Shown here: positions 557 to 49,153 of the stretch, piece by piece
How the letters are laid out: each line of letters starts with the position of its first letter
Position numbering within the stretch: the stretch's first letter is position 1
Assembly (NCBI GenBank): GCA_016778985.1
Contig: JADHOM010000015.1
Coordinates: 1 to 49,153, forward strand
DNA: 49,153 nucleotides
Reading direction: 5' to 3'
DNA from: Alphaproteobacteria bacterium
GTDB taxonomy: Bacteria > Pseudomonadota > Alphaproteobacteria > Puniceispirillales > UBA1172
Translations under genes and position numbers: made by a program
The notes under the pieces: generated by a model
Seen by the model: the letters and a program-made list of their open reading frames with translations, nothing else
Database searches by the model: none
What the model was told of the DNA's origin: nothing

Positions 557-2827
557 TTAGAACCGCCCCCCAATGCTGAATTGAAATTCTTGTTTTTTGT
601 CATAACTTTTTTCATTTAATGGAACAGACCAGAAGAACGATAGAGGGCCAATAGCGGTATCCCAGAAAAAGCCATATCCAAATGATGAGCGCATATCATT
701 ATCATCTGCGCCGGTCACCCTTGACGGATAATCTGTTCCCCAAAGTGAGCCAAAGTCATAATAAACTGTCCACCGAACCCCTAAATCCGGATTGAACCCA
801 TAGCTGGAAATGACATTGACTGTGCCTGCATAATACTGATTCCCGCCAACAACAGAGTTATCACCTGTATCGCGGGGGCCAATTCCATCACGGGCAAATC
901 CGCGTATTTTCTTACCACCAATCACAAAACGGTTAGACCGTGAGACGTTTTCACCAAGCCCATCAACAACGCCAACTTCACCTCCAAAGCCAATGACAAA
1001 GCGCTTAAAATTAAAGGGCATAAAATATTGGCTCCTTACCGTTGTTTTAAGGAATTGAACATCACCGGCAATGCCAGCCACGTTATTAGACACACGCCAA
1101 TAATATCCGCTACGCGGATCAAACCTATTATCACGTTTATCCTGCTGCAAGACATAGCTGACCTCAGATACTACCTGCGCCCCTTCATCACCACTAGTTG
1201 ATGTCGCCTTGGATGATTTCGTTGTTGTTTGGGTTTCAGCAAGAAGATATCCAAAGCGGTGAGAATAATCATTTTGCGCGCTAAACCCAATCCCGGTATC
1301 AAAACCCTGTTTTTCTAGCGTCACGTCTGAAAAGGTTTCTTCCTCTCGAAAGATATCAAGGCTACCGCTAAGGTTTCTATCAAAAAGATAAGGTTCGGTA
1401 ATCCCTGCACGGAAGTTTGATTTACTGCCAGACACCGAAACATTGGCCCGTAAGCCGCGGCCGCTACCAAGAAAGTTACTTTCCTCGATACCAATTTGAA
1501 CTGACCCATCATCAACCGAAGAATACCCAAAACCGAGAGTAAAGTTACCTGTTGACTTCTCCTCTACTTCAACCTCAATGATAGATTGATCGCCTGCCGA
1601 CCCCGGCAACACTCTGCTCGTCACATTGCCAAAATAACCAAGGTTGCGAATATTACGGATAGAGTTTGTCAGTTTTAGCTGATTAAAACTATCGCCTTCG
1701 ACAAGCTCAAATCTGCGCCGGATCACACGGTCCAGGGTTCTGTCATTAGCAACGATACGAATTTCCTCAACAAAATTGCGTTCGGCTCGACCAACATTAA
1801 TCGTCAGTGCCAAGGTCGCATTTTCTTTATCTAGTTCAAAATCTGGCTCAACATTGACAAAAGCAAAGCCATATTCGCCCAGTTTATCGGTTATCCGCGT
1901 TAATGTGTCATCCAGATACCGCACATCATAGACATCACCAACATCAAGCGTCGACTCAGCTAACAGGATATCATTATTGACTGTCTCAATCGCAGAATTA
2001 ATGACAATGTCAGACACCGTATATTGTTTACCCTCATCAACATGGAAGGTTAAAACAAAGCCTTGCCGGTCTGGCAATAATTCACCCGATGAGCGCAGAA
2101 TAGTGAAATCAGCATAACCGTTCTGCAAATAAAATTGACGAAGACTCTGTTCATCAAGGGCAAGCCGTGCTGGGTCATATTTGTCATTTGAGGTAAGGAA
2201 AATATACCATTTTCTTTCCCTAGAGACGACAACACTCCGCAAGGCGCGATCACTAAACTGCTGATTGCCAATGAACTTAATTTTACTAATTTTAATCAAT
2301 GGACCTTCATTAACTTCAAAGATCAGGTCAACCCGCTTATCCGGAAGCTCAATAATCTTAGGTTCAATTTTGGCGGCATAACGGCCATTTTGACGATAGG
2401 TTTCCATCAAAATAGCTTTACCTTCTAGGGCAATTTGCCGGGTGAAAACACGTCTTGGTTTTATGTTTAGAATATCCAGTAGCTGCTGATCTTTGAGGAC
2501 TTTGTTACCCTCAATATTAATGCGATTAATAATTGGATTTTCATCAACCGTAATAATCAGCTTGTCACCATCAAGGCGCACCATGACGTCATGAAACAAA
2601 TCCGTTGCAAAGAGTGATGATATCACTCGATTGAGATCAGATGGTGAAATCTCATCGCCAACTTGTATCGGCATATAAGATTGAACCGTTGACGGGCTAA
2701 TCCGTTTCGCACCTTCAATGATTACCTCAGATAATGTGACTTGCTGCGCTTGAGCCGAAGGTGCACTAACCATAAGCATCATGCTCATTAACCAAAGAAT
2801 TAGTAATTTGCTCAACCCAAGTTTCAT
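557..2827 (-). CDS. bamA: Outer membrane protein assembly factor BamA
   Basis: Omp85-family core of the BAM complex, which inserts beta-barrel proteins into the outer membrane. An N-terminal signal peptide ends near PSAQA. About five POTRA repeats fill residues ~30-430 and a C-terminal 16-strand barrel fills the rest, with the loop 6 motif KKIRGF and a terminal Phe (GGRF). I chose the ATG at 2827, not the in-frame ATG at 2842, because GGAGAG lies 5 nt upstream of the 2827 codon and nothing similar precedes 2842. That gives 756 residues, normal for the family. It lies between rseP and skp, as in most alphaproteobacteria. Confidence 0.97.
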   Translation of the reverse strand: MKLGLSKLLILWLMSMMLMVSAPSAQAQQVTLSEVIIEGAKRISPSTVQSYMPIQVGDEISPSDLNRVISSLFATDLFHDVMVRLDGDKLIITVDENPIINRINIEGNKVLKDQQLLDILNIKPRRVFTRQIALEGKAILMETYRQNGRYAAKIEPKIIELPDKRVDLIFEVNEGPLIKISKIKFIGNQQFSDRALRSVVVSRERKWYIFLTSNDKYDPARLALDEQSLRQFYLQNGYADFTILRSSGELLPDRQGFVLTFHVDEGKQYTVSDIVINSAIETVNNDILLAESTLDVGDVYDVRYLDDTLTRITDKLGEYGFAFVNVEPDFELDKENATLALTINVGRAERNFVEEIRIVANDRTLDRVIRRRFELVEGDSFNQLKLTNSIRNIRNLGYFGNVTSRVLPGSAGDQSIIEVEVEEKSTGNFTLGFGYSSVDDGSVQIGIEESNFLGSGRGLRANVSVSGSKSNFRAGITEPYLFDRNLSGSLDIFREEETFSDVTLEKQGFDTGIGFSAQNDYSHRFGYLLAETQTTTKSSKATSTSGDEGAQVVSEVSYVLQQDKRDNRFDPRSGYYWRVSNNVAGIAGDVQFLKTTVRSQYFMPFNFKRFVIGFGGEVGVVDGLGENVSRSNRFVIGGKKIRGFARDGIGPRDTGDNSVVGGNQYYAGTVNVISSYGFNPDLGVRWTVYYDFGSLWGTDYPSRVTGADDNDMRSSFGYGFFWDTAIGPLSFFWSVPLNEKSYDKKQEFQFSIGGRF

Positions 2828-2932
2828 TATTCTCTCCACCATATCGGGAACTACTATATGACAACTGTTCGCGTTTTCATAGGATTAACCAACTAAATCA
2901 CGTTAAGTCCGGTTTAACCAACCCGAGTTTAA

Positions 2933-4030
2933 TTAACATGGTGAAGTTACCCAGCTCACCACATCAAAAAATGTAAACATAAGTATTAAGGTCAACAAGA
3001 AAGCAATTCCAAGCCGCATCACCCATTCTTGCCATTGTGGTGATAAAGGTCTGCGCATGATGGCTTCCAGCCCAAAAAATACCAGATGCCCGCCATCTAA
3101 TGCCGGTACAGGCATTAAATTGACAAATCCTAAATTAATTGACAATGCCGCAATCAAGATGAGGAATTGAATAAAACCTCTTTGATCAAGCGCGTTTTGT
3201 GCGGCCTCCCCGGTAATTTCCGCAATTTTGACAGGGCCGCCCATTTCCCCTTTATTGGCTTGACCAGTGATTAAGCGGCCAAGCCCACGCAACATAGCTA
3301 GCGATAAGGTGTAGCTTTCCTCCATCGCCGCAACAATGGACGCACCAAAGCCAAGCTGTTTAATCTCACCACTGCGGCTAATGACGCCAAGCTGGCCATA
3401 TTCAGCACCTCGACATTCGTCAATAATTGTTAGAGGCGTGACGGGCATTTCACTAACCCTGCCATCACGGTTAATCGTAAAAATCAACTCCCGGCCGGGA
3501 TTTTCAGCAACATGGATACGCAGGTCATTAAAATCATCAATCTGATATCCATTGACGCTAAGGACACGATCACCGATTTGCAGACCTGCTTGGTCAGCGG
3601 CACTGCCTTCCATCAGCTCATCAATCACTGGCGGCGTAAACGCCTTACCCATCATCATGAAAACGGTAGCAAAAATCGCAATTCCTAGAATAAAATTGGC
3701 AATTGGCCCCATTGATACAATAAAGGCGCGGCTAGCCAATGACGCCGACATAAAGCTGCCTTCTTGCTTTGCCGCATCAGCATCAGGGATTCCAGATGGG
3801 TCTTTATCGCCGCGCATCCGAACATAGCCACCAAGCGGAATAGCCGAAAACCGCCAGCGCGTTCCATGACGATCATTAAAGCCAAATAGCTCTTGTCCAA
3901 AGCCTATGGAAAAGACCTCAACATAAACTCCAGACCGGCGCGCCGCCCAGAAATGTCCGTATTCATGAACAAAGACGATAACAGTCAGAACAAATAAGAA
4001 TCCAAATAGAAAGATAAGCGTGTCGAGCAT
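2933..4030 (-). CDS. rseP: Site-2 intramembrane zinc metalloprotease RseP
   Basis: M50 family protease that cleaves membrane-anchored anti-sigma factors and remnant signal peptides in the inner membrane. The zinc site HEYGH is at residues 22-26 inside the first membrane helix. A PDZ domain occupies the middle (around EGSAADQAGLQIGDRVLSVN), and the third zinc ligand region NLMPVPALDGGHLV lies near residue 310, followed by a last membrane helix. At 365 residues with a single PDZ domain it is the shorter alphaproteobacterial form; the E. coli protein has two. It starts 3 bp after the dxr stop, so the two are likely co-transcribed. Confidence 0.96.
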   Translation of the reverse strand: MLDTLIFLFGFLFVLTVIVFVHEYGHFWAARRSGVYVEVFSIGFGQELFGFNDRHGTRWRFSAIPLGGYVRMRGDKDPSGIPDADAAKQEGSFMSASLASRAFIVSMGPIANFILGIAIFATVFMMMGKAFTPPVIDELMEGSAADQAGLQIGDRVLSVNGYQIDDFNDLRIHVAENPGRELIFTINRDGRVSEMPVTPLTIIDECRGAEYGQLGVISRSGEIKQLGFGASIVAAMEESYTLSLAMLRGLGRLITGQANKGEMGGPVKIAEITGEAAQNALDQRGFIQFLILIAALSINLGFVNLMPVPALDGGHLVFFGLEAIMRRPLSPQWQEWVMRLGIAFLLTLILMFTFFDVVSWVTSPC

Positions 4031-6078: not shown

Positions 6079-6819
6079 TCAGCCAATATATCGAGAGGAT
6101 TTGTCAACACTATTGCCATCACTGCCAAAACGACGCTCACGAGAGCCATATTCTTCCAATGCTTGATCTAAATCAGTTGGGCTAAAATCTGGCCAATACA
6201 TCGGCATAAACAAGAACTCGGCATACGCCATATCCCATAGCATAAAATTAGATATGCGCTTTTCGTCACTGGTTCTAATGAGCAAATCAATCGGCGGTAA
6301 TGGCGCGGTGTAGAGATGGTTTTTGATTAGTGTTTCATCAATATCAGAGGCATCTTTTTTGCCTGCCGCAATATCTGCTGCTATCTCACGCATCGCCATC
6401 GTGATATCCGATCGCCCACCATAATTCAGCGCAACGGTCAGATTAATCCCTGTATTGGCGGCAGAAAGATCAACTAACTCAATCACTTTTTTCTGAATAT
6501 TTAGTGGAAATCCAGACAAATCCCCAATCGTTCTCAGCCGCACATTCTGGTCGATTAGTGCCTTGCCCTTACGATCAAGAAAATAGCGAAAGACGCCCAA
6601 AATATCTTTGACTTCATTGGCTGGCCGCGACCAATTTTCGGTGGAAAAGGCAAATATTGTTAACCAAGAAATGCCCTGCTCATGCGCATGTTCAGTGATC
6701 TTTTCAACCACTGACGCGCCTTGCATATGGCCTGACCTGATGGGCATACCTCGCGCCTTGGCCCAGCGGCGATTGCCGTCCATAATGATAGCCAGATGAT
6801 GAGGTATTGCTGTTTTCAT
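6079..6819 (-). CDS. uppS: Undecaprenyl diphosphate synthase (cis-prenyltransferase)
   Basis: Condenses isopentenyl diphosphate onto farnesyl diphosphate to make the C55 carrier for peptidoglycan and other envelope polymers. The catalytic motif AIIMDGNRRWAKARG is near the N-terminus. The C-terminal substrate block reads RTSDEKRISNFMLW, then AYAEF and RERRFG. The family usually has GGE or SGE where this protein has SDE, so a glycine is replaced by aspartate while the flanking Arg, Glu and Ser ligands are kept. The ATG at 6819 is used; the preceding TTG would add one residue. It lies 11 bp after frr. Confidence 0.96.
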   Translation of the reverse strand: MKTAIPHHLAIIMDGNRRWAKARGMPIRSGHMQGASVVEKITEHAHEQGISWLTIFAFSTENWSRPANEVKDILGVFRYFLDRKGKALIDQNVRLRTIGDLSGFPLNIQKKVIELVDLSAANTGINLTVALNYGGRSDITMAMREIAADIAAGKKDASDIDETLIKNHLYTAPLPPIDLLIRTSDEKRISNFMLWDMAYAEFLFMPMYWPDFSPTDLDQALEEYGSRERRFGSDGNSVDKSSRYIG

Positions 6820-6830
6820 CAATTTGTATT

Positions 6831-7385
6831 CTATACCGTCTTAATGTCTTTTTCTTTTGTTGCTAGCATCTGATCGACTTTGCTGACATGATCATCAGTT
6901 AGTTTTTGCACTTTGGCTTCTAATCCGTGGCGTTCATCTTCACCATAATCGCCATCTTTTTCCCCTTTGCGCACCTGCTCAATACTATCACGTCGGACGT
7001 TTCTGATAGAGACGCGTGCCGCCTCTGCATATTTTCCAGCTACTTTTGCAAGCTCTTCTCGGCGTTCCGATGACAGATCAGGCACCGGTATCCTGATCAA
7101 TGTACCTTCGGCTTGGGGGTTAAGCCCCAGATCAGATTCGCGGATTGCTTTTTCAACCGCGGGCGTCATGGAGGCATCCCAAACTTGCACAGTCAAAAGC
7201 CGAGGTTCAGGAACAGAAATATTGCCAACCTGATTAATTGGCATGCGTGAGCCATAGGCCTCAACAGAAATTGGTTCTAACATCCCAACCGAAGCGCGGC
7301 CAGTTCTCAGCCCCTGAAATTCGGTTTCAAGAGCGGAAACGGCGCCCTGCATGCGTCTCTGTGTATCATCCATATTAAAGCTCAT
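6831..7385 (-). CDS. frr: Ribosome recycling factor
   Basis: With EF-G, splits the post-termination ribosome. The 184-residue protein matches the family along its length: N-terminal helix with LETEFQGLRTGRAS, beta domain around VEAYGSRMPINQVGNISVPEPRLL, and the long C-terminal helical arm with RREELAKVAGKYAEAARVSIRN. Its ribosome-binding site AAGGAG overlaps the last codons of pyrH, 4 bp upstream, which suggests translational coupling. Confidence 0.97.
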   Translation of the reverse strand: MSFNMDDTQRRMQGAVSALETEFQGLRTGRASVGMLEPISVEAYGSRMPINQVGNISVPEPRLLTVQVWDASMTPAVEKAIRESDLGLNPQAEGTLIRIPVPDLSSERREELAKVAGKYAEAARVSIRNVRRDSIEQVRKGEKDGDYGEDERHGLEAKVQKLTDDHVSKVDQMLATKEKDIKTV

Positions 7386-7389
7386 GACA

Positions 7390-8130
7390 CTAGTCTCCTT
7401 TTTTATCGGTAATCAAAGTGAATTTATCCTCATGCCGCAAGACACGATCAAAACTGCCTTGCTTTTCAATCGAAAACACAATCATGGGAATATCATTTTC
7501 CCGTGCCAAAGAAATCGCTGACGCATCCATGACAGCTAAATCCCGTGACAATACATCTTTATACGTCAATTGTGGATGATGTATGGCATTAGGGTCTTTT
7601 TCTGGATCAGCCGAATAAACCCCATCAACGCGCGTGCCTTTGAGGATAAGGTCGCAATTCATCTCCGTTGCCCGAAGCGCCGCCGCCGTATCGGTGGTGA
7701 AAAATGGATTACCTGTGCCAGCCGCAAAAATGACGACACGGCCCTTTTCAATATGGCGTTTGGCACGACGGCGAATATATGGCTCACAAACAGCACTAAT
7801 TGGCAGGGCAGATAAGACCCGCGTATTAACCGATAAATCTTCGAGCGCGTTTTGCATGGCAAGGGCATTCATCACCGTTGCTAGCATACCCATATAATCA
7901 CCGGTTGCTCTTTCCATGCCAGATGCAGCACCAGAAATGCCGCGGAATATATTACCGCCGCCAATGACTAGGCAAATCTCAATGCCTTGTTCAATCACAT
8001 GCTTGATTTCTTCGGCGACGCGAGACACCATTGCCGGATCAATACCGTAGCTCCTCTCCCCCATCAAAGATTCACCAGAAATCTTAAGAAGTACGCGTTT
8101 GTATTTATGAGAAGGGGCTGTATCCGGCAT
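7390..8130 (-). CDS. pyrH: Uridylate kinase (UMP kinase)
   Basis: Amino-acid-kinase-family enzyme that phosphorylates UMP to UDP in pyrimidine synthesis. The N-terminal phosphate-binding strand reads [13 protein letters not shown], the central glycine-rich loop [12 protein letters not shown], and the C-terminal half has [16 protein letters not shown] and [19 protein letters not shown]. An in-frame ATG exists at 8172, but the ATG at 8130 has AGGA 6 nt upstream and gives the usual N-terminus just ahead of the first strand (246 residues), so it is preferred. It lies between tsf and frr in the standard order. Confidence 0.96.
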
Positions 8131-9271: not shown

Positions 9272-10078
9272 TTAAGCCGGTGCCGCTTCTGCTGGCTCTT
9301 CAGCTGGTGCTTCGGCAGGCGCGTCGCTAGCAATGGTCTCTTCAACAGGCGCTGCTTCTTCGCCAACATCAGCACCTGAACGGATGATTTCTGTTTTCAG
9401 ACCTTCGATAACTGATCCGGCAACGAGATCACAATAGAGACTGATCGCCCGTAATGCATCATCATTGCCCGGAATAACATAATCAACCCCATCCGGGTTG
9501 GCATTACTATCAACCACAGCAACCACAGGAATATTCAGAACATTGGCTTCTTTCACCGCAATGTCCTCTTTATTGGTATCAATGATGAAAAGCAAATCTG
9601 GCACACCACCCATTTCCTTAATACCGCCGAGCGTCTTTTCTAGCTTATCGCGTTCGCGGGTCAAGGTAAGGGTTTCTTTTTTCGTCAATGCGTTAACATC
9701 TTCGCCACTTAACCGTTCTTCCATTTCACGCAGACGGCGGATGGATTGGGAGACGGTTGACCAGTTTGTTAGCATACCGCCAAGCCAGCGGTGATTAACA
9801 TAATACTGACCACATGACTTTGCCGCTTCGGCAACGACTTCTGATGCTGATGGCTTGGTGCCAACAAACAGCACACGACCACCATTTGATGCAACCTTAC
9901 TAATCGCCTCAAGGGCTTGGTAAAGCATCGGCACAGTCTGTTGCAGGTTAAGAATATGAATATTGTTGCGATCACCAAAGATGAACGGCTTCATCTTAGG
10001 GTTCCAGCGGCGAGTATGGTGACCAAAGTGAACACCAGCTTCGAGTAGCTGACGCATGGTAAAACTAGGCATAGGCAT
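9272..10078 (-). CDS. rpsB: 30S ribosomal protein S2 with acidic Ala/Glu/Pro tail
   Basis: Small-subunit protein S2. The conserved N-terminus reads [20 protein letters not shown], with further blocks [21 protein letters not shown] and [15 protein letters not shown]. The ORF runs open to 10156, but the ATG at 10078 has AAGGAG 7 nt upstream and yields the normal [10 protein letters not shown] start, so the longer version is rejected. The last ~30 residues are a low-complexity Ala/Glu/Pro tail, as in several alphaproteobacterial S2 proteins. Confidence 0.97.
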
Positions 10079-10141
10079 AATCATGCTCCTTTTCCGGTTA
10101 AGCCTCCATGAAGGGTGAGGAAGCGGTTTTGCCGATCCACC

Positions 10142-10170
10142 GGAAGGCAATGCCAAGCATTGCCACCTTC
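10142..10170 (-). promoter_or_regulatory. Hairpin in the rpsB 5' leader
   Basis: About 65-90 nt before the rpsB start, the minus strand holds GGCAATG-CTTGG-CATTGCC, an exact 7 bp stem, extended outward by GAAGG/CCTTC-like pairing. It sits where S2 autoregulatory leaders occur in other bacteria. I do not recognise a named family, so a regulatory role is inference. Confidence 0.35.
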
Positions 10171-10261
10171 ATGTGCGAATTCCAATCAATTATTGGTAGC
10201 CCTTGATTAGCGACAAACGCGCCCATTTGCAAGTATTATTGTTGAAAAATTGAGGAAACGT

Positions 10262-13200
10262 CTAAAGAAAGATGTTACTGATTGAAACTACCCCATCAAG
10301 CGATTTCACGTGCTGGCGAAAGCCTTGGCTGAGTTTATAAGAACCATCTAGTTTCAGCATGACTTCATGGGTTTGCACATGCATTTTCAAAATGAGCTTT
10401 TGCCGCCCTTCGCCATCACGCGCAAGCCCACTAGCAATACCAGAAAACGCCGAATTATCCATGACATGCACCACCATTCCCATAGTTTTCGTTTCAATTG
10501 CGGTATCTAGCGGTAAGACTTCTCTCGCCAAGAGCTTGACGCGGTCATCGTCACGGCGGGCGCTTACCTTCACATAGATCGGCTCATTTTCAATCAAGTA
10601 TTCTTCGGCAGCGGCCAGAACATCACTAAATAGAGTAACGTCAATCATGCCCGTGGGGTCAGTCATCTGCATAAAAGCGAAGCGGTTATTATTCTTCGAT
10701 GTTCTAATCTGCTTAGCGTAGACAAGCCCAACAAAATGAAGGTCAACCGCGTCTTTTGTGTCATTAAGTTTTTCCGATAACTGGCTGGCAAAGGTGATAT
10801 TGAGTGGCGTTAATTGATCCATGTATTCATCAAGCGGATGGGCGCTCAGATAAAGCCCCAAAGCTTCCATTTCAAAGGCTAGCTTGTCCTTTGCTTCCCA
10901 TTCTGGCCGTTGTTCCAGAGGGATATCTAGCGCCGCACCGGCAACGGTATCAAACAAGTTATCTTGCGCGGTTTCGGCTTCTTTCCTGGCGATTTGGGCA
11001 TAAGATAGAATACGGTCAATAGCATCAAACAAGGTTGATCTGGTCATGCCAAAATCATCTAAGGCCCCAGATTTGATTAAGTTTTCAAGCATCCTGCGGT
11101 TAAGATTGGCAGCCCCACGGCTGGCAAAATCCTCAAGTGAGGTAAACGGGCCGTTCTGCACCCGCTCATTAACCAGAGCCTTCATCAGATCATAGCCAAC
11201 ATTGCGGATAGCCCCCAAGCCATAGCGGATACCCTGCCCCCCGGGACGTTCTTCAACCGTAAATATCGCCTCAGAATAGTTAACTGATGGCGGCAACATA
11301 GCGATATCATAGCTGTTACAATCTTGCCTAAAGACCGCCAGTTTTTCGGTATTGCCGATATCCATTGTCATTAGTGCCGCCAAAAACTCAGCCTTGTAAT
11401 GGCGTTTCAGCCATGCCGTTTGCCACGCAATAAGGGCATAAGCGGCGGCATGTGATTTATTAAATCCATATCCGGCAAAGGCACTAATCTGATCAAAAAT
11501 CTGCCCTGCTAATTTCTCATTAATATTATTTTTTGTTGCGCCAGAAATAAACTCACCGCGCTGGGCAACCATTTCGGATTCGATTTTCTTACCCATAGCA
11601 CGGCGCAAAATATCAGCCTTGCCAAGACTATATCCAGATAAAACCTGTGCCGCTCTTTGCACCTGTTCTTGATAAATCATAATGCCATAGGTTTCTTCTA
11701 GCACTGGCTCAAGCAACGGATGCATGTAACTCACCTCTTCGCGGCCATGCTTACGGGCTATATATTTCGGGATATTTTCCATCGGCCCCGGACGGTATAA
11801 AGCGACAACAGCAATAATATCCTCAAACCGGTCAGGTTTAAGACCTTTCAGGACTTCACGCATACCGCTTGATTCAAGCTGGAACAGCCCAACCGCCTCA
11901 CCTTCTCCCAGCATGGCAAAGGTGGCTTCACATTCAAGCGGGATATCGCCTAATTGCAGATCAATGCCCTTGCGTTTGATCAGATCAATCGCTTGCTGCA
12001 AGACGGTTAGCGTTTTCAGCCCGAGAAAATCAAACTTCACCAATCCGGCATCTTCCACCGATTTCATATTGAATTGGGTAACTGGCAATTCTGATGCTGG
12101 ATCACGCGCCAACGGCACCAATTCAGCCAATGGGCGGTCGCCAATCACAACCCCCGCGGCATGCGTTGACCAATGCCTTAATAAGCCTTCAATCTGTTTT
12201 GAAATATTGACCAGGTTCAATATATCTGGATCACTTTCAACGGCAGCTTTTAGGTCTTGTTCGGTTTTCAGCGCCTCAGAAAGTTTGACAGGTTTCGCCG
12301 GATTACTTGGCACCAGCTTAGCAATGCGATCAACTTGACCATAGGGCATGCCTAGCACGCGGCCAGCATCGCGCAGCGCCGCTCGTGCCTGCAGGCTTCC
12401 AAAGGTGATAATCTGGGCAACCCGATCATCGCCATATTTTTGCTGAACATAGCTGATGACTTCTTCACGCCGATCACGGCAGAAATCAATATCAAAATCA
12501 GGCATTGAAATCCGCTCAGGGTTCAAAAAGCGTTCAAACAGTAGCCCCCAACGAATAGGATCAAGGTCAGTTATTCCCAATGCATAACCAACTAATGATC
12601 CGGCGCCAGACCCACGTCCTGGCCCGACCGGGATATTCTGCTGTTTTGCCCAATTAATGAAATCAGCAACAATCAGAAAATATCCTGAAAAACCCATCTT
12701 GGTAATGATATCCAGCTCAAGCTCAAGCCTATCCTCATAGGTTTTGCTCATTGCCTGTACATCCGCCTCAGCATAGGCGCTATCCCCTGTCAGAGCTTTG
12801 ATTTGCTCAAGCCGTTCGGCCAAGCCCTGATGCGATAGGTTACGCAGCCAGACTTTCTCATCACTGCCATCAGGGGTGGCAAAAGGCGGCAATAAAGGGC
12901 TGCGTTTTTCAACTGCAAAGGCGCAACGGCGAGCGATATGCGTAGTGTTTTCAATGGCCTCTGGAAGATCAGAAAATAATGCCCGCATCTCGCGTTCAGA
13001 TTTGAAATAATGCTCATTCGTTTCATGCCGGCGATCATCATGAAACAGGGTTTTGCCCTCCGATATACAGAGCAAAACACTATGCGCGTCAGCATCGCTT
13101 TGGCTCGCAAAATAGCAATCATTGGTGGCAACAATCGGAATATTATTGGTATAAGCCATATCCAGCAACTGCGGCTCAGCAATAGCCTCAGCCTCTATGC

Positions 13201-44644: not shown

Positions 44645-45559
44645 TCATTCAAAGTAATCGGCATTAAGCTTTTTTACTTCAAGGGTTTTTTGCGAAACAC
44701 ATCCATCCCCATGTTTAATCATTAGCCTCGATAAGGTGTCACCATCTATCAAAACGATACGCTGGGGGACTTTTTCAGCTGTTTCTTTTGCTGACTTTGA
44801 AAATGAAGATGTCGTTACAAACAAACCCTTTTGTGCTTGCTGAACATTTAGGGCGCCGGTAAAACTTCTCACTGCCTCCGATGAAATAGTGCTGTCACTT
44901 TGATACCGCTTAGCTTGAATATATACGCTTTCAAGACCAAGTATATCCTGATTAATTAAGCCATCTACCCCGTTATCACCTGACTTACCCAATACCTGAC
45001 CTGCATTATCGTCATCACCCCCATAGCCAATGCTTAACAGCAAATCGACAATAACTTTTTCAAAAAAATCTGGCGACGAAGACTGCAATTGATCCAGCAA
45101 TTCTGCTGCCAAACTGTCCTCAATCTCCTCGAGAGCTTCCGTTATCTTATCAAGTGGGGTTAGCGCAAACTCATCTTCCTGTTTATCTGTACCCGCATGC
45201 GCCCTAGTGCCTTTTCTATTTTGAAAGTCAATGAATGCTGGCAGCGAACGTAAATCATTCACTAATATGTCTTCCTTTTGGGATTCAAAAAAACTCTGCC
45301 CATCAGGTGTAATGCTAACAAAGCCTCGCCTAGTGGTAGCCAGCAATCCTGCTTGAAACAAATAGATTGCAGCCCAATGGGTTCTATCAATATATCGTCT
45401 TTGATTACCGCTTTTTGTAGTCTCTAATCTTGCTTGAGCCGATAAGTCAAACTCATCGGCGATTTTATTTGCGCTCTCTCGCACATTGATTTAACCAGCG
45501 CTAGCAAGTCTCAACAAAGGCTGAAAAAATTTCGTAAAAGGCGGACAGGTATCCAGCAT
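44645..45559 (-). pseudogene. mrr: Mrr-type restriction endonuclease gene with one in-frame stop codon
   Basis: Mrr proteins cut methylated DNA. The C-terminal Mrr_cat domain is complete here, with GDNGVDGL and VYIQAKRY holding the D...QxK catalytic set. The N-terminal winged domain starts at the ATG at 45559, which has GGAGG 6 nt upstream, and reads CPPFTKFFQPLLRLASAG. A TAA at 45493-45491 then interrupts the same frame, and the reading resumes without shift as INVRESANKIADEFDLS. Bridging the stop gives 304 codons, the normal Mrr length. The longest uninterrupted frame begins only at a GTG at 45484, so a truncated protein by reinitiation is possible. A sequencing error at this base cannot be excluded. 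Confidence 0.88.
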
Positions 45560-45748: not shown

Positions 45749-46104
45749 GGGTAAGGGGTGATCATAGCTTGATAATCTTTTGCTGATGTTATTAGTAGCC
45801 ATAAATGTTTGTGGTGAAAACATAACTTAGGCTCAATGAGTTGATCAAAGAGGCCTTAACCCTCATCAACTACAGCCGTGTGTGAATTGCCTTTGATGCT
45901 ATATAACGCTTAATAACCTTTTTGAGAAGTGTCTAGCTAATAAGGTATTAAACTTCTAGCTGAAATATTATTTGGAATATGTATATACCTATAAATAGTT
46001 GTGGACAAAACTAAGCTGTGGTGTGAATATATTCAAAGCTTATGTTCCGGGCTTATTCTTTAATAGATCAAGAAAATATTGAAACTGAGATAAAGGCTCT
46101 TGAA
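45749..46104. other. Intergenic stretch with a hairpin and an imperfect repeat
   Basis: No gene seen. At 45840-45870 GTTGAT..GAGG pairs with CCTC.ATCAAC. Two similar ~30-bp segments start at 45801 and 45991 (both ATAAAT...GTTGTGG or GTTTGTGG, then AAAA and ACT/AAG), about 190 bp apart. The second lies just before the cyclase gene. Function unknown; both observations are by eye. Confidence 0.35.
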
Positions 46105-47862
46105 ATGCAGAGAAAATTTACCACGATTTTAGCTTTAGACGTCGTTGGATTCAGTAAACTTATGTCAATCGACGAAGATAGAACTTTGGTAAATTTACAA
46201 GCTAGACGGAAAATTATTGATCCACTTATCGAGATAAAAGGGGGTAGAATATTTAATACGGCTGGAGATAGCGTATTAGCAGAATTCTCTAACCCAGTAG
46301 ACGCTGTAGAATGTGGTGTACAAATTCAGAATAAATCAGTCTCAATTAATAACAAAGCTGATGAAGCTGATAGGATGAGTTATAGAATAGGCCTCAATAT
46401 GGGCGAAGTAATAGTATCCGACGGCAATTTATTTGGAGATGCAGTGAATGTTGCCGCCAGATTAGAAAGCCAAGCAATTGCAGATGGGCTTTGCATTTCA
46501 GAGAGTATTTTTGAAATTGTGAATATGAAGGTCAAAGTTTCATATGAAGACGCCGGTCAATTGAACCTGAAAAATATTTCAAAGCCAGTTCGGGCCTATA
46601 ATGTTTTAAAGTGTAAAGGCGCATCTCGTGGCATTATTAGTGCAGAAGCAGAACCTAAAGTCAAAATTGACACTGTTGGATCAGGTACTGTAGCTGTCTT
46701 ATTATTCAAAAATTTGAGTAACGATGAGGAACAAGGTTATTTTTGTGAGGGCTTCAGTGAAGACCTTATATCAGCCCTATCAAGACATAGTAGCCTTTTG
46801 GTCAGTGCTAGCAATGCTAGTTTCTCGTATGCAAGCAAAGACAAAACAAACAGCGAAATAGGGAGAGAACTAGGTGTTAGATATATAGTTGATGGTAAAG
46901 TAAGAAAAATGGGTGCACGAATGCGCATTAGTGTTTCCTTATTATCTGCCGAAGACGAAAAAATTATATGGAATGAAAACTACGACACAAACCTAGATGA
47001 TATATTCGATGTTCAGGACGAAATTGTCTCATCAACGGTGGCCAAAATTGTTGGGAAGGTTGAAAGCGACCAAGTTAAACAGCTGGCAAATAAAAAACCT
47101 GAAGTTATGGAAGCATATGATCTCGTTCTTAAAGGTCTAGAATACCACAGGAAAAGCTCAGTTTCAGCAGAAAACAACAAAAAAGCTTTGAGTTTATTTA
47201 CAAAAGCGACGGAAGTAGATCCTAATTATGCAAGAGCATTTGCTTGGAAAACCTGTTCGTTAGCAAATAACTCAGAATGGTTTCCTAACGATATGCCTGA
47301 TAACTGGATGGAGGATGCTTTTTCTTCTGTAAACAGAGCTATGGAATTAGACCCAGATGACCCAGAAGCTCACAGAATACTTGGTGCAGTGAAGCTTATG
47401 TTCGAAGGAGACATGGAAAAAGCAATATTTCACCACAAAAAAGCTATTGAAATATGCCCCAGTGATACTTTTCACTTAGCACGATATGCGGTTCTACTAT
47501 CGTATTTAGGTAAAGCCGATGAAGCAATAGAGCAGCTCGATAAAGCTTTACGGATTAATCCTTTTGGCTCAGATCTAATTTTCGAAACACAAGGTGTTTG
47601 TGAGTACCTTTTGCAGAACTTCTCAGAAGCACTGGAATCCTTTAAAAATATGCAGATAGATACTCGGACTAGTTTATTTTACTCCGCTGTGTGTCACAAA
47701 CTATTAGGAAATCTGGATATTTCGAGCGAAAAACTAGAAATTGCAAAGGCCGAAAGTGGTATGGATATTGAAAAATTTGTTACGACTCAGCTATATCAAG
47801 ATCCAACTATCTCAAAAGACTTGATTGCAAACTTGTCCGAAATAGAAACAGCCTCTAAATAA
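46105..47862 (+). CDS. Class III adenylate/guanylate cyclase with TolB-like and TPR regions
   Basis: The N-terminal ~170 residues form a class III cyclase domain: ILALDVVGFSKLM with a metal-binding Asp, NTAGDSVLAEF with the second, and NLFGDAVNVAARLES with the Asn/Arg transition-state residues. Next, GTVAVLLFKNLSNDEEQGYF begins a TolB-N/FlgO-like domain (~residues 195-330), and the C-terminal ~250 residues contain TPR-like helical pairs (YARAFAW, PEAHRILGAV, EAIEQLDKALRINPFG). No membrane helix is seen, so it is probably cytosolic. The ATG at 46105 has AAAGG 8 nt upstream and gives the usual family N-terminus; the upstream ATG at 46042 lacks a ribosome site. The gene is clearly more AT-rich than the operons to its left. 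Confidence 0.88.
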   Translation: MQRKFTTILALDVVGFSKLMSIDEDRTLVNLQARRKIIDPLIEIKGGRIFNTAGDSVLAEFSNPVDAVECGVQIQNKSVSINNKADEADRMSYRIGLNMGEVIVSDGNLFGDAVNVAARLESQAIADGLCISESIFEIVNMKVKVSYEDAGQLNLKNISKPVRAYNVLKCKGASRGIISAEAEPKVKIDTVGSGTVAVLLFKNLSNDEEQGYFCEGFSEDLISALSRHSSLLVSASNASFSYASKDKTNSEIGRELGVRYIVDGKVRKMGARMRISVSLLSAEDEKIIWNENYDTNLDDIFDVQDEIVSSTVAKIVGKVESDQVKQLANKKPEVMEAYDLVLKGLEYHRKSSVSAENNKKALSLFTKATEVDPNYARAFAWKTCSLANNSEWFPNDMPDNWMEDAFSSVNRAMELDPDDPEAHRILGAVKLMFEGDMEKAIFHHKKAIEICPSDTFHLARYAVLLSYLGKADEAIEQLDKALRINPFGSDLIFETQGVCEYLLQNFSEALESFKNMQIDTRTSLFYSAVCHKLLGNLDISSEKLEIAKAESGMDIEKFVTTQLYQDPTISKDLIANLSEIETASK

Positions 47863-47933: not shown

Positions 47934-48120
47934 TTATCCATCCAGAATCTTTTTTCTGTGAGTATTATACCCCTCACCATAACCCTGACCCACACCAGCT
48001 GTAGCCCACCCCCCAATCTGGTCTATCATGTCTGCTGGACATTGAACTGCTCTAAGTCTGTCACGCATAGAGTGCCGAAATGAATGAACCACATACCCTA
48101 GAACAGCAACCACTATGCTT
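47934..48120 (-). pseudogene. C-terminal remnant of a tyrosine recombinase (phage-type integrase)
   Basis: Too short for a normal ORF call. The minus-strand frame ends TAA at 47934 and reads VVHSFRHSMRDRLRAV, MIDQIGGWATAGVG, then GQGYGEGY and a basic end. HSFRH is the H-x-x-R catalytic box, GGW the next conserved position, and a Tyr in GQGYGEGY the likely nucleophile. The frame runs back only to a TGA at about 48121 and the recognisable part starts near 48105, so at least 250 residues are missing. It marks an old integration end. Confidence 0.88.
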
Positions 48121-48140
48121 CATCCCAATACAGCAACCCC

Positions 48141-49016
48141 GACATAACTTACAAAATTCATATTGAGAGGGTTTACGAAAGTTTAATTCAACTTGGCTAT
48201 CTTGTTGAAGTTAAGTCCGGTGTTTTCAATGGGAATGTTCGTTTATTAACTCGATATGAAGCAACTGATAAGCTGACTTCTTTATTTGATGAGATGACTT
48301 TACTAACACTTCCTGTTCAAGAACGGGTTTCTGAAAATCCTGAATTGCTTCGTGTCCGGATTGAAGTTGATGGAATGAAGCAACTTGTTAGCTTTAACGA
48401 CAACGATGACATCCAAGAAATGCGAAGGAATTTAGAAATCATCAATGCTGCTCTTTCTACTCGATGGATAGACCTCGAACTGACTGATGATGAATTTGAG
48501 GAGCTCGAATTACGAATGCATCAACGGTCAATTGAGCGTAATGAAGGGGAAGGAAGACTACGTCTCCATGATAGGCAAATATATCGTGTTTTTAACAGTC
48601 TTGATTTTGATAGGGGTGGCCGATTTTATGGGGGTTGGTGGCAAATGGTTCCATCACAATACCGAAGCAAAATCTTGATTGATGGAAAGCGAACAGTTGA
48701 ACTGGATTTCAGCACTCTCCATCCAACCATCTTATATGCTCAAGCCGGGGTAAAACTTGAACAAGATGCATATCAAATTGCACTGAAGCCAGAAACCACA
48801 CCTGCTGGTAAAAACAGTGGTGATTTCCGTAACGTTGTTAAGAGAGCGTTCAATGCCATGCTTAATGCAGAGCATCGACTCAAGCAACCACCCCACGAAC
48901 TCAAACTAAGTGAATGGGGCATCAGTTGGAAACAGTTGGTGCAAGCCATCGAGTCAAGACATCAGCCAGTTGCAAAACAATTCTTTACTGGAACAGGATT
49001 AAGACTTCAGTTTGAG
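48141..49016 (+). pseudogene. Polymerase-like gene fragment, truncated at both ends
   Basis: Open frame of 292 codons with no upstream start codon between the stop near 48102 and the first ATG at 48294. The coding signal (IHIERVYESLIQLGYLVEV) begins well before that ATG, so the 5' end is missing. The central part has GGRFYGGWWQMVP, then VELDFSTLHPTILYAQAG, which resembles polymerase motif A (Asp, aliphatic/aromatic, Ser, ...). FRNVVKRAFNAMLNA resembles motif B with its Arg and Lys, and FFTGTGLRLQFE follows just before the insertion sequence. The expected motif C lies beyond the break. I infer a palm-fold (family A-like) nucleic-acid polymerase of a mobile element, but recognise no named family. 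Confidence 0.6.
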
Positions 49017-49153
49017 TGTCTAGCCCCATTTTTCAGTGCCACTTATTTTGTCGTTCTCTAATAAGGTTTCGGGGACGGGTGGTCTCATGCCCAATGCGTG
49101 ATGAGGTCTGATCTGGTTATATTGTCTGAGCCAGGTATTGATTGCGACCTGAG
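49017..49153 (-). mobile_element. Insertion sequence end, IS3-like, continuing beyond the window
   Basis: The polymerase-like frame stops resembling its family after 49016, and the following bases begin TGTCTAGCCCC, fitting a TG-initiated IS terminus. Inside lies the transposase 3' end on the opposite strand, its stop codon within the terminal bases, as is common for IS3-family elements. The other end and any target duplication are outside the window. Confidence 0.7.
49020..49151 (-). CDS. Transposase C-terminus, rve/IS3-like (partial)
   Basis: Forty-three codons and a TAG are visible: INTWLRQYNQIRPHHALG, then MRPPVPETLLEN. The pattern YN..RPH.ALG..PP is the hallmark end of DDE integrase-core transposases of IS3-type elements, following the catalytic Glu. 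The start is outside the window. Confidence 0.85.
   Translation of the reverse strand, partial: QVAINTWLRQYNQIRPHHALGMRPPVPETLLENDKISGTEKWG

Follow-up and report, generated by a model that had tools for sequence, protein, structure and literature searches.

Locus architecture and boundaries of the gene fragment

The window analyzed here, 49,153 nucleotides in length, is one entire contig (JADHOM010000015.1) of a 2.1-Mb alphaproteobacterial genome in 43 contigs. Near its right end, a stop-to-stop frame of 319 codons (48102-49061, plus strand) encodes part of a polymerase-like protein and lies next to the remnant of a tyrosine recombinase (integrase) gene. Homology to the polymerase-like family extends to position 49016, and the final 15 residues of the frame beyond this point are derived from an insertion sequence (IS). 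The similarity of the fragment to the family is far above chance: the fragment matched the PHROG_4756 profile with an E value of 3.3e-27, and protein matches were found in 22 of 60 related genomes (own genome not counted; best E value, 7e-49). The integrase remnant was 60 to 80% identical (blastx, E values to 7e-25) to integrases that lie beside intact copies of the polymerase gene. The two genes are truncated at the same breakpoint, as similarity to integrases extends up to 48098 and similarity to the polymerase family sets in at 48102. At the other end, the DNA from 49017 on was 75 to 80% identical to IS3-family DNA of marine alphaproteobacterial plasmids, and the contig terminates inside this IS3-family element. 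Hence, a polymerase-like frame beside an integrase remnant and cut at both ends, as claimed by the original prediction made from the window sequence alone, is indeed present. The predicted end at 49016 coincides with the end of homology, whereas the fragment starts about 40 bases upstream of the predicted start at 48141.

No motif C was present within the window, and the remaining part of the polymerase gene was not found in a search of the same genome. We interpret the window copy as a probable dead polymerase gene copy of a small integrative mobile element. Its start may have been lost by a deletion or rearrangement that also took the front of the integrase gene, and its end would have been lost to the IS3 insertion.

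Protein family and catalytic residues

Judged by profile matches, PHROG_4756 is the family of the window fragment; it matched 22 of 22 aligned members (best E value, 4.9e-87), and its entry carries no function. Searches of Pfam, NCBIfam, and PADLOC yielded no meaningful family match, and the literature searched contained no paper naming this family in such elements. A viral scan with the single fragment found no relative, whereas an alignment-based scan did. Full-frame relatives were mostly 430 to 570 amino acids long. Numbered according to the Leisingera aquimarina protein (locus L032), the invariant or nearly invariant residues are G269 and R270, R284, E296, D298 (motif A), Y320, R337 and K341 (motif B), and H422, D423, and S424 (motif C).

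The original prediction had recognized motifs A and B of a palm-fold polymerase in the fragment, and both the Asp of E-L-D-F-S and the R and K of motif B (codons at 48828 and 48840) sit on invariant family columns. When full-length homologues were checked, the motif A Asp was conserved in 41 of 41 and 22 of 22 aligned relatives. The acidic motif C, expected to follow soon past the break, is present in intact relatives as H-D-S-F about 25 residues beyond the break point. H-D-S occurred in 39/39 and 20/21 relatives in two alignments; the copy in phage ICP1 has H-D-A. The residue five positions past the motif A Asp (D+5) is His, Asn, Gln, Ser, or Ala, and is His in the window copy. Between pairs of close relatives, dN/dS ratios were 0.02 to 0.20, indicating that the gene is retained for its product. 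Intact relatives thus have the complete catalytic signature and are under strong purifying selection.

Predicted structure

Because a PDB sequence search with the family profile returned no match up to an E value of 10, the fold was sought by structure. AlphaFold2, run on the Leisingera relative with an alignment of 41 sequences, yielded a model with a mean pLDDT of 79 and values of 86 to 98 across residues 251 to 450. In an unbiased Foldseek search of the PDB, the best 50 matches were all family A polymerases, each with a probability of 1.00. VIA-align gave Z scores of 13.3 for the apicoplast DNA polymerase and 12.6 for the mitochondrial RNA polymerase (∼250 to 300 residues at ∼4 to 5 Å), which counts as a tie between the DNA and RNA polymerase folds. 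The core of the model is a minimal palm/fingers domain of the family A polymerase/single-subunit RNA polymerase superfamily, in line with the palm fold anticipated from the fragment. We are highly confident that the family represents a nucleic acid polymerase of the palm superfamily.

In the same model, the first 200 residues form a helix-strand-helix-helix-strand-wing-strand pattern. A separate model of the Leisingera N-terminal domain (pLDDT, 72) matched chiefly winged-helix proteins in a structural second look, with none of the listed PDB matches reaching a Z score of 7, and its Foldseek list was mixed, with nothing under an E value of 0.001. As all listed PDB matches remained below a Z score of 7, no specific DNA-binding family is claimed; from its modeled shape, DNA binding by this domain is plausible.

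Integrative elements at tRNA genes

In the related genomes, 14 of 34 copies of the polymerase gene had an integrase within 8 kb, and most of the copies without a nearby integrase came from short contigs or from the ends of contigs. All seven copies flanked by 8 kb or more of contig on both sides had an integrase no more than 8 kb away (product of null chances, 3e-9, under a lenient null model, islands generally being integrase-rich). In a class-wide sample, an integrase was present in the fetched region of 15 of 20 loci, so that the linkage to a tyrosine recombinase that had been expected from the window held in both data sets. In 10 of these 15 loci, the integrase adjoined a tRNA gene, and 8 of the 10 exhibited a perfect repeat (17 to 54 bp) of the tRNA 3′ end at a distance of 6.6 to 10.1 kb. 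The delimited set comprised 13 elements of 6.6 to 12 kb, namely these eight and five others (two of the latter on a 14-bp repeat only). Since the window copy is decayed and no tRNA gene is present in the window, this test for an element at a tRNA site is not applicable to it. Overall, the family was detected in 29 of 385 genomes of a class sample and in 24 of 398 genomes of a phylum sample, with one of the latter 24 belonging outside the class.

Integrase and polymerase were the only genes common to all 13 delimited elements, based on mechanical gene calls. Because the polymerase was used to pick the loci and the integrase to delimit them, this two-gene core arises partly by construction, and the informative result is that no third gene was shared. 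The cargo was variable and often of defense type, including type I restriction-modification systems, methyltransferases, OLD/AriA-like ATPases, and a macro domain; a caspase-like protein was encoded in an additional locus, and metal-handling genes were judged from sequence. No recognized primase, replicative helicase, or polymerase was found among the element cargo genes scanned. With an integrase and a single other universal gene whose polymerase active site is intact, the simplest reading is that the enzyme starts replication of the circular form of the element. We therefore propose that it serves as the origin-binding initiator or priming polymerase of the element, a role that, taken as a whole, we consider to have an even chance of being correct.

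The frequent association with restriction-modification, OLD/AriA-like ATPase, and caspase-like genes could also mean that the polymerase is itself a defense or antidefense cargo enzyme, comparable to other palm-fold proteins of defense islands, and its occurrence in virulent phages (see below) would fit this as well. However, none of 22 members had a PADLOC match, and the gene stays with the integrase in 13/13 elements (in loci chosen by this gene) while the cargo turns over, as expected of a core gene. We regard a defense function as very improbable.

Several known systems resemble these elements. Pipolins have tRNA integration sites. Like the elements described here, they are integrated and combine a tyrosine recombinase with a polymerase of their own, in their case a primer-independent family B enzyme (piPolB) (PMC7385651, PMC9710591), whereas fold and motifs of the polymerase studied here are of the family A/RNA polymerase type and the elements are small (6.6 to 12 kb). 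PICMI satellites (PMC10803314) are likewise small, often come from marine hosts, and carry an integrase and one replication-type gene; they encode a primase where the present elements have a palm polymerase, and for the latter a helper phage and packaging would be hypothetical. Tycheposons and VEIMEs, grouped with the phage satellites, share the small size, the integrase, the one replication-type gene, and often the marine hosts.

Relatives in large phages

The original prediction had envisaged a mobile-element-encoded polymerase of a poorly described group. The 13 delimited elements agree with such a location, and the gene was additionally present in large virulent phages. More distant relatives were found in large phages of Vibrio, Aeromonas, Rheinheimera, Pseudoalteromonas, Shewanella, and a few other hosts. 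ORF100 of the cholera phage ICP1 (NC_015157) is one such relative, in which the catalytic Asp residues are kept. In a tree whose groupings were read from the topology, without support values, copies of large virulent phages were set apart from most element copies, and the window copy grouped with those of Leisingera, Limimaricola, and Loktanella.

We rejected the possibility that the family acts as the replicase of its phages, as a separate conventional polymerase was present in every annotated complete phage checked (four of four annotated phages scanned, as well as Barba1A by annotation). Phage 2L372X encodes an additional Toprim/DnaB-type primase-helicase.

Two minor observations concern the viral copies. 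Other ICP1 isolates have a version that is more diverged and located nearby. An IMG/VR contig (L067) contains three identically scoring gene copies (1849-3114, 6508-7773, and 9855-11120), which may reflect amplification or an assembly artifact.

RNA versus DNA polymerase signatures

Positions that discriminate between polymerase types were compared with a reference alignment of 15 family A DNA polymerases (host and phage) and 8 phage RNA polymerases. At D+5 of motif A, all 15 DNA polymerases have the ribose-excluding Glu and all 8 RNA polymerases have Gly; the family never has Glu. The family shows D-x-Y, as do 8/8 RNA polymerases, instead of the D-x-H of 15/15 DNA polymerases. Its motif C, H-D-S, is that of 6/8 RNA polymerases, whereas 14/15 DNA polymerases have H-D-E. 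Also RNA polymerase-like are G-R-x-Y and the Asp of a Q..D motif preceding motif C. In hmmsearch comparisons within a small set, an RNA polymerase profile built for this purpose reached a best score of 14 bits (6e-5) with the family, compared with 6 bits (0.02) for a family A DNA polymerase profile, a weak lean in the same direction. The RNA polymerase family PHROG_414 matched weakly over the motif C region (0.0055). As to polymerase type, the palm-fold assignment of the original prediction can thus be refined, in that a number of the discriminating positions resemble single-subunit RNA polymerases more than DNA polymerases. Given the absence of the ribose-excluding Glu and the other RNA polymerase-like positions, these sequence features suggest that RNA synthesis is the likelier chemistry and that a primer would more likely consist of RNA than of DNA.

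With family A DNA polymerases (Pol I, T7 DNA polymerase; PF00476), the family shares the palm/fingers core, the motif A Asp, the R...K of motif B, and the H-D of motif C. Unlike them, it lacks the steric-gate Glu, the motif B Tyr, and the H-D-E form of motif C; no exonuclease match was found in the family, and PF00476 did not match any of 22 members up to an E value of 1. The DNA polymerases at the top of the structural matches, and the separate replicases of carrier phages, as would be expected of an accessory enzyme, speak for an alternative in which the protein is not an initiator but an accessory DNA polymerase, engaged in gap filling, end repair, or primed copying of the excised element. 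Against it stands the missing steric-gate Glu, and a repair enzyme would be odd as the sole universal gene besides the integrase. We consider this alternative conceivable, if unlikely.

Conversely, the features shared with single-subunit RNA polymerases (T7/SP6 and mitochondrial enzymes; PHROG_414), i.e., D-x-Y, H-D-S, G-R-x-Y, the Asp before motif C, and the lack of a Glu gate, along with the PHROG_414 match, would also suit a minimal RNA polymerase that transcribes element or phage promoters recognized via its winged-helix part. Yet at mostly 430 to 570 amino acids, the family is only about half as long as known single-subunit RNA polymerases (∼800 to 883 amino acids), and it lacks their motif B Tyr. 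A dedicated transcriptase therefore seems improbable to us.

Proposed role in element replication

According to the preferred initiator reading, the integrase would excise the element as a circle, and the polymerase would bind the element origin via its N-terminal domain and lay down the first strand or a primer, more probably of RNA than of DNA. Host or helper-phage replication proteins would then extend from this primer, and the copy number of the element would depend on the enzyme. In PICMI satellites, deletion of the primase gene prim lowers the copy number (PMC10803314). By analogy, the enzyme would do the primase or initiator job known from phage satellites.

Several points weigh against this reading. 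The motif B Tyr of both reference groups (Tyr639 of T7) is replaced by Asn or Gln in the family: at this position, eight residues past the motif B Lys, Tyr was found in one of 40 sequences. The profile comparison suggested along with the original prediction was of limited help: a first profile-profile comparison, from a shallower alignment, gave no match, and deeper alignments gave weak matches, with hhalign assigning a probability of 54% to RNA polymerase (for motif C alone) and 21% to family A DNA polymerase. As these matches are weak, the lean toward RNA polymerases rests on few columns, aligned by motif order, and over such a distance the matching of columns itself presupposes that this order corresponds. 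Furthermore, since the carrier phages have a replicase of their own, the polymerase must do something extra there. Finally, the N-terminal domain can be called winged-helix-like only tentatively, given its weak structural matches.

If the initiator reading is correct, it would provide a testable function for a family listed as unknown, with a member in ICP1, one of the best-studied phages. The elements themselves define a compact group across the class searched, sharing only an integrase and a palm polymerase. An enzyme that primes with RNA would count as a very short representative of the RNA polymerase side of the superfamily and would add, to primases and Rep proteins, a third type of enzyme with which satellites and islands start replication.

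Inverted attachment sites of the accompanying integrase clade

Many polymerase copies have integrases of one clade beside them. In this clade, inverted repeats of ∼57 to 160 bp, ending in the attachment core, lie on either side of the integrase gene. Four delimited elements have a further inverted-repeat pair (358 to 1,053 bp, 98 to 100% identical) around the polymerase segment, and the region in which both repeat pairs overlap is exactly the att core, inverted. Besides attL and attR, the integrated element hence contains a complete internal attachment site in reverse orientation. As two of the four elements are from single-contig genomes, an assembly error is unlikely. A limited literature search found no report of this layout.

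We rejected the inverted sites as a property of the polymerase elements, because they were present with or without a polymerase and absent where a polymerase element had an integrase from outside the clade. Among control loci, about 10 of 13 clade integrases had them versus none of 8 other integrases. The feature tracks the integrase clade, independently of the polymerase.

As a free circle, such an element would have two full attachment sites, inverted relative to each other. Such a layout resembles that of the yeast 2-micron plasmid. One could imagine that a so far undescribed branch of minimal RNA polymerase-like palm enzymes primes small elements, and that the clade integrase could flip the two-site circle for a 2-micron/FLP-like amplification; we hold this combined scenario to be doubtful. 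Against active flipping, the integrase start faced the tRNA gene in every case with a visible tRNA gene.

Two further loci with inverted repeats at an integrase were observed. At L021 (1189-10000), two such elements seem to be arranged in tandem at one tRNA-Thr gene, the second integrase with its own 92-bp inverted repeat lying directly past the attR of the first element. The genome of the window itself contains, on contig 5 (L130:9111-10517), an intact clade integrase at a tRNA-Leu gene with a perfect 93-bp inverted repeat; no polymerase was found with this integrase, and the contig ends shortly after.

Feature coordinates and neighboring genes

TABLE 1 Features of the gene fragment, its flanks, and related loci (window positions unless preceded by a locus or accession number)
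Feature	Position	Strand	Basis
Tyrosine recombinase remnant; C-terminal H-x-x-R box and residues after it, N-terminal part gone	∼47940-48098	-	blastx
Breakpoint; integrase homology stops, polymerase homology starts	48099-48101		Ends of both homologies
Polymerase-like gene fragment; end of N-terminal domain and core until just before the absent motif C	48102-49016	+	PHROG_4756, relatives, alignment
Portion of putative N-terminal winged-helix-like region (QYSNPDITYK...LLTRYEAT)	48126-48269	+	Alignment, Leisingera N-terminal domain model; structure matches weak (Z <7)
G-G-R-F-Y motif; second G and R invariant across family	48615-48629	+	Family alignment
Motif A, E-L-D-F-S-T-L-H-P; catalytic Asp codon 48705-48707	48699-48725	+	Family alignment
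D-x-Y motif (D-A-Y)	48765-48773	+	Family alignment
Motif B (fingers helix), R-N-V-V-K-R-A-F-N-A-M-L-N-A	48828-48869	+	Family-invariant R and K
IS3-family insertion sequence end (transposase C terminus); interrupts gene	49017-49153	-	DNA identity, translation
ICP1 relative	HQ641351.1 52721-54208 (L085:22722-24209)		
Elements with nested repeat pairs (75-160 bp at integrase; 358-1053 bp at polymerase segment)	L032:7333-19027, L021:1249-8157, L025:7768-14475, L122:8313-15566		
Small recurrent protein	L017:8489-8845, L024:10332-10733, L025:11293-11721, L029:9357-9788		

Four loci encode a small protein of about 119 to 144 amino acids close to the polymerase, possibly as its partner; no Pfam match was obtained for the two tested. 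Most of ten other window proteins scanned appeared chromosomal (Pol III alpha, gyrase/topoisomerase IV A subunit, RelA/SpoT, Omp85, and others). A Mrr-type restriction endonuclease is encoded at 44648-45484, near the remnant, and may be part of the same decayed island. Immediately to the left of the integrase remnant, positions 46042-47862 encode an adenylate/guanylate cyclase domain fused with TPR repeats.
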